Of a stretch of 56,451 nucleotides of DNA, positions 4,618 to 26,612 are shown piece after piece. The stretch comes from Chitinophagaceae bacterium (GTDB lineage: Bacteria > Bacteroidota > Bacteroidia > Chitinophagales > Chitinophagaceae). Both the position numbers and the translations under genes were made by a program. Location: the NCBI GenBank assembly GCA_025449935.1, contig JANWIJ010000025.1:1-56451 (forward strand), in the 5' to 3' direction. The notes below the pieces were generated by a model. That model saw only the letters and a list, made by a program, of their open reading frames with translations, ran no database searches and had not been told where the DNA came from. Each line of letters begins with the position of its first letter. The first letter of the stretch is position 1.

Positions 4618-6594
4618 ATGCTTGATTCAAAAATTCCTGCCGGGACGTTAGAAGATAAATGGACAGATTATAAGGGTCATTGCAAATTGGTGAACCCCGC
4701 TAACAAAAGAAAGCTGGAGATTATCATTGTAGGAACAGGTCTTGCCGGTGCTTCGGCAGCGGCCGCGCTGGGCGAACTGGGCTATAAGGTAAAAGCATTT
4801 TGTTTCCAGGATTCCCCGCGCCGGGCACATTCGATTGCGGCGCAGGGAGGGATCAATGCCGCCAAGAATTACCAGAACGATGGGGATTCTGTTTTCCGTT
4901 TGTTTTATGATACGGTGAAAGGAGGCGATTACCGGGCAAGAGAGGGTAATGTACACCGGCTGGCGGAAGTAAGCGTAAACATTATTGATCAATGTGTGGC
5001 ACAGGGAGTTCCTTTTGCCAGGGAATATGGGGGCTTGCTGAATAACCGTTCATTCGGAGGGACACAGGTTAAAAGAACTTTTTACGCGGCTGGTCAAACG
5101 GGTCAGCAATTACTGATCGGTGCTTACCAGGCATTGGAAAGACAGGTGGCATTGGGAAATGTACAGATGTACAACCGCCACGAAATGCTGGATATTGTGA
5201 TGGTTGATGATAAGGCAAGAGGAATAATTTGCCGAAATCTTGTGAATGGTGAACTGGAAAGACATTTTGGACATGCCGTATTATTATGTACCGGCGGATA
5301 TGGCAACGTATTTTATCTTTCTACCAACGCGATGGGCAGCAATGTTACTGCCGCCTGGAAAGCTCATAAGAAAGGCGCTTTTTTTGGTAATCCCTGCTTT
5401 ACACAAATTCATCCCACTTGTATTCCCGTGAGCGGTGACCACCAGTCAAAGCTGACATTAATGTCAGAATCGCTTAGAAATGACGGCCGGATATGGGTTC
5501 CGAAAAAACAGGGAGATACCAGAAAACCCAATGATATCCCCGAAGAGGAAAGAGATTATTACCTGGAAAGAAGATACCCCGCTTTCGGAAACCTGGTTCC
5601 AAGGGACGTTGCTTCAAGAGCGGCCAAAGAAAGATGTGATGCCGGCTATGGCGTAGGCACAACAAAGCAGGCGGTATACCTTGATTTTAAATACAACCTG
5701 ATCAATAAATACGGTAAAACAGAAGCCGGTAAATTAGGTATTGAAAATCCTGATTTGGAAACATTGGTGCGGTTGGGTAAGGAAGTCGTGAAGGAAGAGT
5801 ATGGTAATCTCTTTGACATGTATGAAAAGATCACCGGTGAAAATCCTTACGAAGTACCCATGCGGATCTACCCCGCGGTTCACTACACCATGGGTGGTTT
5901 GTGGGTGGATTATGAATTGATGACGAATGTGAAAGGATTGTATTGCCTGGGTGAAGCGAATTTCAGCGATCATGGCGCCAACCGGCTGGGTGCCTCGGCC
6001 CTGATGCAGGGACTGGCGGATGGTTATTTTGTCATCCCCTATACAATTGGGAATTACCTGGCGGATGAAATAGCCACGAAACCCATTCCAACTTCGCATG
6101 AAGCATTTGAGCAGACAGAAAAAGCGGTAAGGGACAGGATCAATACACTGATGAATATAAAAGGAAAGCAAACCGTTGAAAGTTTTCATAAGCGGCTGGG
6201 AAAGATCATGTGGGAAAAATGCGGGATGGCCCGTCATGCGGCCGGCTTGCAGGAAGCTATCAGCGAAATACAGGCTTTAAAAAAAGAATTCTGGAGTGAT
6301 CTCAGAATTCCGGGCAGCATCAATGAAATGAATCCGGAATTAGACAAGGCTGGGCGGGTGGCTGATTTTATAGAGCTGGGTGAGTTGATGTGTAAAGATG
6401 CCCTCGCCAGGAATGAAAGCTGTGGCGGTCATTTCCGCGAAGAAAGCCAGACCGAAGAAGGCGAAGCAAAAAGAAATGATGAACAGTATGCATATGTGGC
6501 AGCCTGGGAATTTAAAGGGGAAAGTAACTGGGAGTTACATAAAGAGGTATTGAATTTTGAAATAGCAAAGCCGACGCAGAGAAGCTATAAGTAA
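4618..6594 (+). CDS. sdhA: Succinate dehydrogenase/fumarate reductase flavoprotein subunit
   Basis: This is the catalytic FAD subunit of complex II, interconverting succinate and fumarate at the cytoplasmic face of the membrane. It has 658 residues, normal for the Bacteroidota form. The N-terminal dinucleotide-binding motif is [19 protein letters not shown]. The covalent FAD attachment region is [15 protein letters not shown]. Further family blocks are [24 protein letters not shown] and [20 protein letters not shown]. The TAA stop (6592-6594) is also where the left inverted repeat of the inserted cassette begins, so the insertion leaves the protein intact. Between this gene and sdhB there are normally only a few bases; here more than 420 intervene. 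Confidence 0.97.
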
Positions 6595-6627
6595 TTTAAG
6601 AATTTGTGAATTTGACAATTTGGCAAT
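6594..6627 (+). repeat. Left inverted repeat of the sdh cassette, built of octamers
   Basis: The arm begins at the last base of the sdhA stop codon and reads as tandem AATTTNNN octamers starting at 6593 (AATTTAAG, AATTTGTG, AATTTGAC, AATTTGGC), then AATG. It ends inside the ATG of the four-helix-bundle ORF. It pairs with 6976-7009. Confidence 0.85.
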
Positions 6628-6976
6628 GCAAGTTCAATCTGAAAATATAATTTTTAAGAAGACGATTGAATTTTCATTATCCACAATTGTATATGTTGAA
6701 TTACTCGAAAGTCAGCGGAAATATGTTATAGCCCGGCAACTTTTAAGGTCGGCAACCTCAATCGGCGCTAATGTTCACGAGGCACAGAATGCTGAAAGCT
6801 TAGCTGACTTTATTCATAGGTTTAAAATTGCAGCAAAAGAGGTTGAGGAAACTAAATATTGGTTGAAATTATGTAGTGCAACTTCGAGCTACCCGGATTG
6901 CGGACATTTAATTGAAGAACTAAATGAGATTGATAAGATAATTACTAAAATAATTTCGACAAGTAAAGCAAAGTAA
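6626..6976 (+). CDS. Four-helix-bundle protein, S23/23S rRNA intervening-sequence protein family
   Basis: From ATG 6626 the protein has 116 residues and is almost entirely helical. The diagnostic segment is [19 protein letters not shown] followed by [19 protein letters not shown], the conserved core of the S23/IVP four-helix-bundle family (same fold as Avd of diversity-generating retroelements). The family forms small oligomeric bundles; its function outside rRNA introns is unknown. The start ATG shares two bases with the left inverted repeat and the stop TAA shares one base with the right one. A TTG two codons upstream is possible but lies within the repeat. It is co-oriented with sdhA and sdhB, so it is presumably on the sdh transcript. 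Confidence 0.88.
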
Positions 6977-7009
6977 TTGCCGAATTGTCAAATTCACAAA
7001 TTGTCAAAT
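6976..7009 (-). repeat. Right inverted repeat of the sdh cassette
   Basis: Read on the minus strand it gives the same octamer series as the left arm (ATTTGAC, AATTTGTG, AATTTGAC, AATTCGGC, AAT). It begins at the last base of the ORF stop codon and ends 8 bases before the first candidate ATG of sdhB at 7018. Confidence 0.85.
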
Positions 7010-7017
7010 GGCGTATT

Positions 7018-7782
7018 ATGGAACAGTACATGATGAATCTTACCTTGAAAGTCTGGAGGCAAAAAAATAGTGCTGACCGGGGCGGTTTTGAAACCTACCC
7101 CGTAAAAAATATTTCTTCGGAAATGTCTTTCCTGGAAATGATCGACGTATTGAATGAAGAGCTGATCATACAGGGAAAAGACCCGATCGCATTCGATCAT
7201 GATTGCCGCGAAGGAATTTGTGGCATGTGCTCTATGTATATTAATGGCCGTCCGCATGGACCCTGGCAGGCCAATACGGTTTGCCAGCTGCACATGCGCG
7301 CTTACCAAAACGGGGACACGATTGTTGTTGAGCCCTGGCGGGCAAATGCATTCCCGGTTATCAAAGACCTGGTTGTTGACAGGAGTGCGTTTGACCGCAT
7401 CATCCAGGCCGGAGGTTATATTTCAGTTAACACCGGCAACGCCGTGGATGCCAATGCTGTACCCGTTGAAAAAGACAAGGCCGATGCCGCATTTGCCGCA
7501 GCATCCTGCATCGGCTGCGGAGCCTGCGTTGCAGCCTGCAAAAATTCTTCTGCCCTGCTCTTTGTATCGGCTAAGGTTTCCCACCTGGCCCTATTACCAC
7601 AAGGAGGGCCCGAACGAAAAACCCGGGCACTGAACATGGTCGCGCAGATGGATAAGGAAGGATTTGGCTCCTGCACCAATACCGGTGCCTGTGAAGCGGT
7701 TTGCCCCAAAGAAATTTCTATTGAAAATATAGCGAGGCTCAACCGGGAGTATATGATGGCGGGTGCTGCTTCGGCGAAATAG
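7018..7782 (+). CDS. sdhB: Succinate dehydrogenase/fumarate reductase iron-sulfur subunit
   Basis: This is the electron-transfer subunit of complex II. Cysteines for the 2Fe-2S cluster are in CREGICGMC plus a later Cys (ANTVC). The C-terminal ferredoxin-like part carries [11 protein letters not shown] and [12 protein letters not shown] for the other clusters. Candidate starts are ATG 7018, 7030 and 7033; the family N-terminus ([11 protein letters not shown]) favours 7030 or 7033. The in-frame opening farther upstream (from 6985) is inside the cassette's right repeat and should not be counted. The gene ends just before a strong terminator. The cassette therefore replaces the normal sdhA-sdhB junction without damaging either product. 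Confidence 0.95.
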
Positions 7783-17547: not shown

Positions 17548-17567
17548 AATGAGTTTATAGTTTGTTG

Positions 17568-17597
17568 TTCTTTGTTCTTTGTTCTTTGTTCTTTGTT
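17568..17597 (-). repeat. Tandem heptamer array (AACAAAG) in the ychF leader
   Basis: On the plus strand GTTCTTT is repeated four times in direct succession, with partial copies at each edge. On the ychF transcript this is AACAAAG repeated, placed between the promoter box at 17638-17645 and the start codon at 17547. Confidence 0.85.
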
Positions 17598-17637
17598 ATA
17601 ATTGTTCCCCATTAAAGACAAATACTTTTAGGGCCGG

Positions 17638-17645
17638 CAAAGATA
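17638..17645 (-). promoter_or_regulatory. ychF: Bacteroidota -7 box (TATCTTTG) of ychF
   Basis: CAAAGATA on the plus strand gives TATCTTTG on the ychF strand, an exact TAnnTTTG match. It would give a leader of about 85 bases containing the heptamer array. No clear -33 element is visible. Confidence 0.5.
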
Positions 17646-17745
17646 AGCGAAATCATTGTTTCTCAGGATGGCCACAGCCCGGGGCCACTACTAACTAGTC
17701 GAAAGTGCTTAACTTCAAACTCCAAACTATAAATCACATACATAT

Positions 17746-26460: not shown

Positions 26461-26550
26461 GGCTTTTTTGATTTTGCTGTATAGTGAACGAAAAATAATG
26501 CCCCGAAGTCTAAAGGAAATGCAAATGTTTGCCAGGGGATGAGAAGGGGA

Positions 26551-26612
26551 AGTGGGTAGTGGGTAGTGGGTAGTGGGTAGTGGGTAGTTGGTAGTGGGTA
26601 GTTGGTAGTGGT
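26551..26612 (+). repeat. Tandem heptamer array (AGTGGGT), about 8.9 units
   Basis: Eight full heptamers and a partial one follow each other. Units six and eight read AGTTGGT; the rest are AGTGGGT. The array lies 12 bases past the stop of the OstA-like gene, between it and the next gene on the minus strand. The apparent ORF through it encodes only a repeated LPTTHY pattern and is not a gene. Confidence 0.9.

Follow-up and report, generated by a model that had tools for sequence, protein, structure and literature searches.

What is the short cassette that separates sdhA from sdhB in this contig of a Chitinophagaceae bacterium, and did it arrive there as mobile DNA? The window that we analysed is the whole stretch of 56,451 nucleotides, and the first-pass annotation had described its positions 6594-7009, in the sdhA-sdhB gap, as a unit made of an S23/IVP open reading frame (ORF) and two inverted arms. 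Our analysis confirms this description. The features concerned are as follows.

4618-6594, + strand: sdhA, the upstream host gene, co-directional with the cassette
6594-6627, + strand: left arm, a run of about four copies of an 8-nt unit (AATTTGNN) in the orientation opposite to that of the right arm
6626-6976, + strand: S23/IVP four-helix-bundle ORF of 116 amino acids (ATG at 6626-6628, TAA at 6974-6976)
6976-7009, + strand: right arm, an inverted array of the 8-nt unit AATTTGNN, matching the left arm at 31/34 positions
7018-7782, + strand: sdhB, the downstream host gene, co-directional with the cassette (ATG at 7018)

Each arm is 34 nt long and AT-rich, and the match of 31/34 overall rises to 26/27 in the inner part. 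As had been annotated, and as the coordinates bear out, the start and stop codons of the ORF both overlap the inner ends of the arms, and the left arm starts at 6594, on the final base of the sdhA stop codon. In profile searches the ORF product matches PF05635 with 72.4 bits (cut-off 33.8) and TIGR02436 with 85.7 bits (cut-off 24). This is the sole Pfam match between the arms, where no transposase or recombinase gene of the element's own was found, and the earlier reading of a minimal S23/IVP cassette lacking a transposase holds. A solved relative of the protein is 2rld (E 2.1e-21), a single entry with five chains, while 2gsc (XCC0516) is matched weakly (E 0.079). When folded as RNA, the element has a z of -3.52 with its arms paired, and 0/100 shuffles were as good.

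One feature escaped the first-pass annotation, namely that the arms are periodic at 8 nt. Scanning the 56-kb window for periods 5-13 yielded three arrays at period 7 and two at period 8, the latter being exactly the two arms. At the threshold used, periods 5, 6 and 9-13 gave no array in the window, and the shuffled-window control (one per period, 5-13) gave zero arrays. Two 7-nt features lie elsewhere in the window.

17552-17733, no strand assigned: candidate ORF-less relative, a 7-nt array at 17552-17597 whose inverted partner, at 17723-17733, is short (11/11 matching)
26547-26609, no strand assigned: lone 7-nt array of the GGGTAGT type with nine units, for which an inverted partner was not found

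The first of these counts only as a candidate because its partner scores 11, below the cut-off of 12. Its array is of the AGTTTNT type, as at another IVP copy of the host genome (L006).

Multiple copies with the same arms, the first-pass annotation argued, would support mobility of the cassette. Several copies are indeed present: PF05635 matches fall at nine places in the host genome (G000), including two partial ones, and an inverted arm pair scoring at least 14.5 stands at 8/9 of them. Identical arms were not found. Each copy has its own 7- or 8-nt unit, among them, by eye, GTGGGGA, AGTTTGT, GTGAATG, AATTAGT and AATTATG; the arm sequence of the window occurs in the host genome solely at the sdh locus, and a loose octamer pattern (at most two mismatches) adds one other place. 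The class is broader and stranger than this first view of it.

PF05635 matches extend to 44/58 relatives and to 157/198 Bacteroidota species. Among genomes of the genus, 11/15 of those of at most 2.1 Mb are without an IVP place, as is 1/19 of the larger ones (own genome excluded). Among the matches listed, we assembled 73 copies, that is 9 from the host genome, 29 relatives' loci and 35 of 40 further stretches, the remaining five being repeats of loci already included. In these copies the median arm score is 16.5 within a locus and 8.5 across loci, and 60/73 lie above the 95% level set by 864 pairs of arms from different loci, with 46/73 over the 99% level. Named relatives of the window protein, drawn from one scan, number 72, of which 68 were scored and four with short flanks were left out; here the arm score is 16.5 within loci and 11.0 across them, with 20/68 over the 95% and 6/68 over the 99% level. 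The cross-locus scores are higher in this named set because its arms are mostly of one octamer type. Stretches L222-L233 do not enter any of the counts.

An arm score of at least 13 was reached by 112/145 copies, and for all but one of them, 111 copies, a best lag was measurable: the period is 8 in 63, 7 in 43 and another value in 5. Around the 145 loci, period-7 arrays occur at 0.48 per kb beside the ORF and 0.037 elsewhere, and period-8 arrays at 0.69 and 0.037 per kb; all other periods stay at or below 0.02 per kb beside the ORF. The arms comprise a median of 4.4 units, with a mode of 4 (106 copies). A fresh set of 30 phylum-wide loci, sampled after the hypotheses were formed and selected as the strongest profile matches, not at random, repeated the pattern more weakly. 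In this set 16/30 loci exceed the 95% arm level and 8/30 the 99% level, leaving 14/30 below 95%; the 16 have periods of 7, 8 and 6 in nine, six and one cases. The enrichment of arrays is smaller than in the first set, at 0.33 versus 0.125 for period 7 (2.6-fold) and 0.29 versus 0.042 for period 8 (about 7-fold).

Arm pairs also occur apart from the gene. Nine of 37 arrays lying away from any IVP have an inverted partner, compared with 0 in the control, and these nine amount to about seven distinct pairs at four loci, mostly at one Chryseobacterium locus. Several octamer arm pairs apart from its IVP gene are seen in Chryseobacterium defluvii (L172). In an all-against-all comparison of the 145 copies, pairs whose similarity is limited to the element are about 72-76% identical, among the 40 of 329 matches listed, and very recent duplicates were rejected on this basis.

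The length of the repeat unit follows the protein lineage. In a tree of the 100 proteins whose copies combine a period of 7 or 8 with a clean ORF, the period label changes 8 times, compared with 31.2 times after shuffling (0/500 as low), a clustering that near relatives inflate. The deepest drawn branch separates a side with 55/57 octamer copies from one with 37/43 heptamer copies. The motif itself behaves differently: between non-orthologous pairs from the genome and its relatives, median arm similarity is 0.50 at protein identities of at least 60% (14 pairs) and 0.17-0.24 below, so that unit length is a deep trait and the motif a shallow one. Over all pairs, the correlation between motif and protein is weak (r 0.16, 1240 pairs); within the period-7 set it is 0.216 over 717 pairs, a value reached by 0/1000 permutations, and at protein identities under about 60% the sharing of motifs drops almost to background. 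A strong code from motif to protein was rejected, as only close relatives have a motif in common. Since unit length tracks the protein tree and close relatives share a motif, the protein most likely recognises the repeat.

We then asked how the sdh copy itself is distributed. An sdhB match was present in 41 genomes, from which 38 loci were taken; three lacked a readable sdhA end, which leaves 35 junctions. An IVP ORF stands at 4/35 (G000, G009, G004 and G001). Three further junctions (G008, G027 and G058) hold, by eye, arrays or a hairpin and no ORF, that of G028 is odd and that of G032 has a gap of 91 bp. The empty sdhA-sdhB junctions that the first-pass annotation expected in relatives make up the other 26/35, which measure 16-49 bp, six sdhB bases included, and are array-free by eye.

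Despite these empty junctions, the sdh copy does not look like a newcomer. Among the 72 named relatives, 17 have sdhA directly upstream, and 15 of these also have sdhB downstream; record titles give Chitinophagaceae, Taibaiella, Flavipsychrobacter and Sphingobacteriales bacteria. Another upstream neighbour, of scoA type, is common to 34/72 and a third to 8; judging by their translations, we take the former to be scoA and the latter an aminotransferase. Across 19 copies, two of them identical to two others, the identity of the IVP rises and falls with that of SdhA (Mantel r 0.757, 0/2000 permutations) in a test made without G001, with which Pearson r is 0.60 over 190 pairs. This agreement indicates that the sdh copy has mostly been inherited, with many losses. 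The copy of G001, at 53-54% identity to the other three and with different octamers, possibly represents an independent insertion. The comparison of G000 with G009 gives a dN of 0.12 and a saturated dS of 3.4. To judge from these comparisons, the sdh element seems long established in Chitinophagaceae-type genomes, conserved in its protein yet often lost, and a recent mobile insertion of this copy is not supported. Occurrence at the same position in all relatives with vertical divergence had been named in advance as evidence against mobility, and it is seen in part: the position is shared by 17/72 and divergence there is mainly vertical, but the element is not present in all relatives.

Within ortholog groups, the arms show little sign of being matched to each other inside a locus. 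The in-locus arm match of the sdh group is 18.25, compared with 19.0 for arms of other members (p 0.76); in the scoA-scoB-type group it is 13.0 versus 12.0, a slight difference (p 0.008), and in a third ortholog group p is 0.35. The excess of sense wobble pairs (130 versus 101, p 0.065) is not significant. Precise base-by-base selection on an RNA stem was rejected in view of this wobble test and of the sdh group, which shows no in-locus covariation. A contig titled Azovibrio restrictus (L124) has a Bacteroidota-like sdhA-IVP-sdhB block whose sdhA is 83% identical to that of the window, possibly a binning error.

Mobility is seen best in cyanobacterial plasmids. Using tblastn, IVP relatives were found in nineteen plasmid records, and ten cyanobacterial copies were examined. 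Six of the ten have strong arm pairs (score at least 23), and two more have arrays; L191 and L193 have no clear arm pair. At a 3-bp operon gap in nine sister Nostoc records, five are empty, three are filled by an IVP element (in one of these, L210, the annotated IVP ORF is short) and one holds other sequence. The next gap measures -1 to 4 bp in eight records and is filled in the ninth by another IVP element, whose arms differ, and a third gap holds, by eye, ORF-less arm pairs in two records (L192 and L209) and partial arrays in three. A 3-bp integrase junction is empty in 3/3 sister records examined, with the element present in Calothrix; a TraM junction is once empty (52 bp), twice filled and once occupied by an ORF-less arm pair. 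An element with AGTC-type arms recurs at 78-82% DNA identity over 402-427 bp in three contexts, its homology stopping at the arms (compared with L192), and the proteins flanking it in these contexts have no mutual blastp similarity at 1e-3. By annotation, an internally deleted copy of the same element occupies a further place (L327). No constant target-site duplication stood out by eye, with a 5-bp TTCTA at one Nostoc site and 3 bp or none at others. Taken together, presence and absence among plasmids, one element in three contexts and the ORF-less forms show that the element class is mobile over time. The mobility proposed for the cassette is supported for the class, and a recent arrival of the sdh copy is not. 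Phage carriage was rejected: two scans of viral contigs confirmed no relative.

The suggestion that such cassettes tolerate operon interiors is also supported, with copies found inside operons and mostly within co-directional gene pairs. With neighbouring ORFs called by a simple rule, both neighbours are co-directional with the element in 26/29 fresh, 49/69 first-set and 66/66 named loci, many of the named ones being orthologous; both are opposite in 0/29, 5/69 and 0/66. A small control with host genes as the focus gave 15/28 co-directional and 4 opposite. According to their annotation, seven of the ten cyanobacterial copies have both neighbours co-directional, two both opposite and one mixed. 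Beyond sdh, where the examined piece contains an IVP ORF in 4/38 genomes, the figures are 4/30 for parE (one of them about 0.9 kb away), 2/30 for cox3 and 8/26 for rfbA (one on the opposite strand, the gaps being not all the same). Empty parE junctions have gaps of roughly 0-20 bp in most genomes displayed, with start codons placed by eye.

Repeat-armed elements with a lineage-tied unit length, their presence or absence at given junctions, their co-direction with host genes and their ORF-less forms are all observed. Overall, these are probably best explained by a mobile class of about 0.35-0.5 kb whose IVP protein reads the repeat and which is moved by host enzymes, the sdh copy being an old resident. 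Such an element would consist of one S23/IVP gene between two inverted arrays, mostly of 4-5 units of a 7- or 8-nt motif. The IVP protein is predicted to bind the repeat units, with perhaps about one unit per subunit of a ring, a geometry made plausible by the five chains of 2rld and by Xcc0516, described as an assembly of five four-helix bundles in a paper title cited in PMC3936711. Elements appear between the stop codon of one gene and the start codon of the next, co-directional one, often in gaps of about 0-30 bp, so that neither host gene is disrupted. ORF-less arm pairs and the internally deleted copy are probable non-autonomous derivatives. As the element lacks its own enzyme, its movement, the weakest step of this account, probably relies on host enzymes that act on a hairpin or a single-stranded intermediate.

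The history of the sdh locus could also be that of a resident gene serving its host, in which the IVP and its arms regulate the operon, for example by binding repeats in the mRNA and setting the ratio of the flanking cistrons, a service for which it would be retained at sdhA-sdhB, scoA-scoB and comparable junctions. The junctions common to many named relatives (sdhA or the scoA-type neighbour), the low dN beside a saturated dS and arms that adjoin the start and stop codons agree with this, and the inheritance of the sdh subfamily along with SdhA fits a resident gene equally. We nevertheless regard it as unlikely, considering that only 4/35 readable junctions of the genus hold an IVP ORF, that copies stand at many different places, that sister plasmids are polymorphic at tiny gaps and that a single element occurs in three unrelated contexts. 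Alternatively, the cassette might act at the RNA level as an intervening sequence (IVS) that RNase III cleaves at the stem of its arms and that spreads when its RNA is reverse-transcribed. Co-direction with host genes, the paired arms of the folded element and a family named after the IVS in 23S rRNA would all suit such a process; its probability is low in our judgement, as the RVT_1 model has no match in G000, G001, G022 or G031, genomes with 9, 16, 13 and 13 IVP places, in a search confined to enzymes within this model, and as the sense-wobble excess is not significant and the sdh group shows no covariation within loci.

Transposition in trans, with the arms moved by a host transposase of the Y1 (REP-type) or another family, has a precedent in the layout of REPINs beside RAYT genes, as far as the accessible text of PMC3116915 describes it, and Y1 matches are present in 31/58 relatives. 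They number zero in G000 (9 IVP places) and G008 (6), a count that covers the Y1 family only, and unit length follows the tree of the IVP protein; we find this explanation distinctly improbable. That chance or AT-rich low complexity produced the arms is suggested by the AT-richness of those in the window and has a negligible probability: it is refuted by the cross-locus, shuffled and other-period controls, which give no such arms, and several cyanobacterial arms are G-rich. With neither RVT_1 (PF00078) nor Y1 (PF01797) matched in the host genome G000, an RVT_1 reverse transcriptase or a Y1 transposase was rejected as a required partner.

The preferred reading, a mobile class with a repeat-reading IVP, can be set beside several known systems. 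In rRNA, an IVS has its ORF closed by a stem, and RNase III removes the IVS from the RNA at this stem. The 23S rRNA IVS that carry an S23/IVP ORF share with the sdh cassette the protein family (PF05635), the arm-closed ORF and the lack of a transposase; unlike them, the sdh cassette lies between protein genes and not in rRNA, and its arms are arrays of 7-8-nt units. The Avd accessory proteins of diversity-generating retroelements are four-helix bundles that form rings, but those retroelements have a reverse transcriptase, and PF00078 has no match in G000. REPIN/RAYT systems (Bertels and Rainey 2011, PMC3116915) are, in the accessible part of that paper, hairpin-capable inverted doublets that are extragenic and linked to a gene and that also occur gene-free. 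Inverted pairs with and without a linked gene were likewise found for our class, though not for the window copy; here the linked gene encodes a four-helix bundle (PF05635) instead of a tyrosine transposase, and the arms are tandem 7-8-nt arrays.

Intergenic heptamer repeats of the same unit length have been described, as convergent pairs in Xanthomonas and as looped pairs in Geobacter, and the accessible portions of these papers propose regulation or give no mechanism, with no mobile unit (PMC4679880, PMC4692102, PMC2700814). The available text of MacGregor 2015 (PMC4679880) reports that TAACTGA heptamers occur in Beggiatoaceae, Cyanobacteria and five Bacteroidetes although no mechanism of transfer is evident, and does not contain the terms 'intervening sequence', 'four helix' or 'S23'. 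For Xanthomonas, convergent GGGAATC pairs are given in 70 and 75 cases in the corresponding portion of PMC4692102, where 'S23' and 'xcc0516' do not appear. The portion of PMC2700814 at hand describes sites in Geobacter metallireducens, fifteen of sixteen of which consist of heptanucleotide repeats five times in tandem and which are drawn as looped pairs; it adds 49 places where other elements have four such repeats, and is free of the terms 'S23' and 'four helix'. Excerpts from other sources mention CPR bacteria whose 16S and 23S insertions contain IVP ORFs (PMC11270868) or merely list four-helix-bundle genes (PMC8700078, PMC5524665). Within the partial coverage of the open-licence literature searched, no paper was found to connect S23/IVP genes with repeat arms of 7-8 nt, which is no proof of absence.

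We tentatively go one step further, to a proposal that we hold to be possible rather than probable: a new kind of mobile DNA in Bacteroidota and Cyanobacteria, in which a ring protein without a known catalytic domain would read the arrays and recruit host enzymes for insertion between stop and start codons, intergenic heptamer repeats being its arms or ORF-less derivatives. Our findings provide the widespread S23/IVP family with a defined partner in DNA and a role that can be tested, and the intergenic heptamer repeats, described without a mechanism in the accessible text of PMC4679880, with a possible origin. If the protein does read the unit, it would recognise sequence by a new system, in which many motif-protein pairs from nature could be compared. 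The 18 IVP genes reported in cas loci, where about half of the transposase genes are on the opposite strand (PMC3936711, as excerpted), may be passengers, their association with cas loci reflecting insertion.

In two cyanobacterial plasmids, the space between cas6 and cas4 is occupied by an IVP element that has inverted heptamer arrays (L188, 1495-1863; L189, 1501-1860). In two Flavobacterium columnare genomes, the accessible part of PMC5524665 lists as a phage region a four-helix-bundle gene between those for guanylate kinase and nicotinate-nucleotide adenylyltransferase, which may be such an element.
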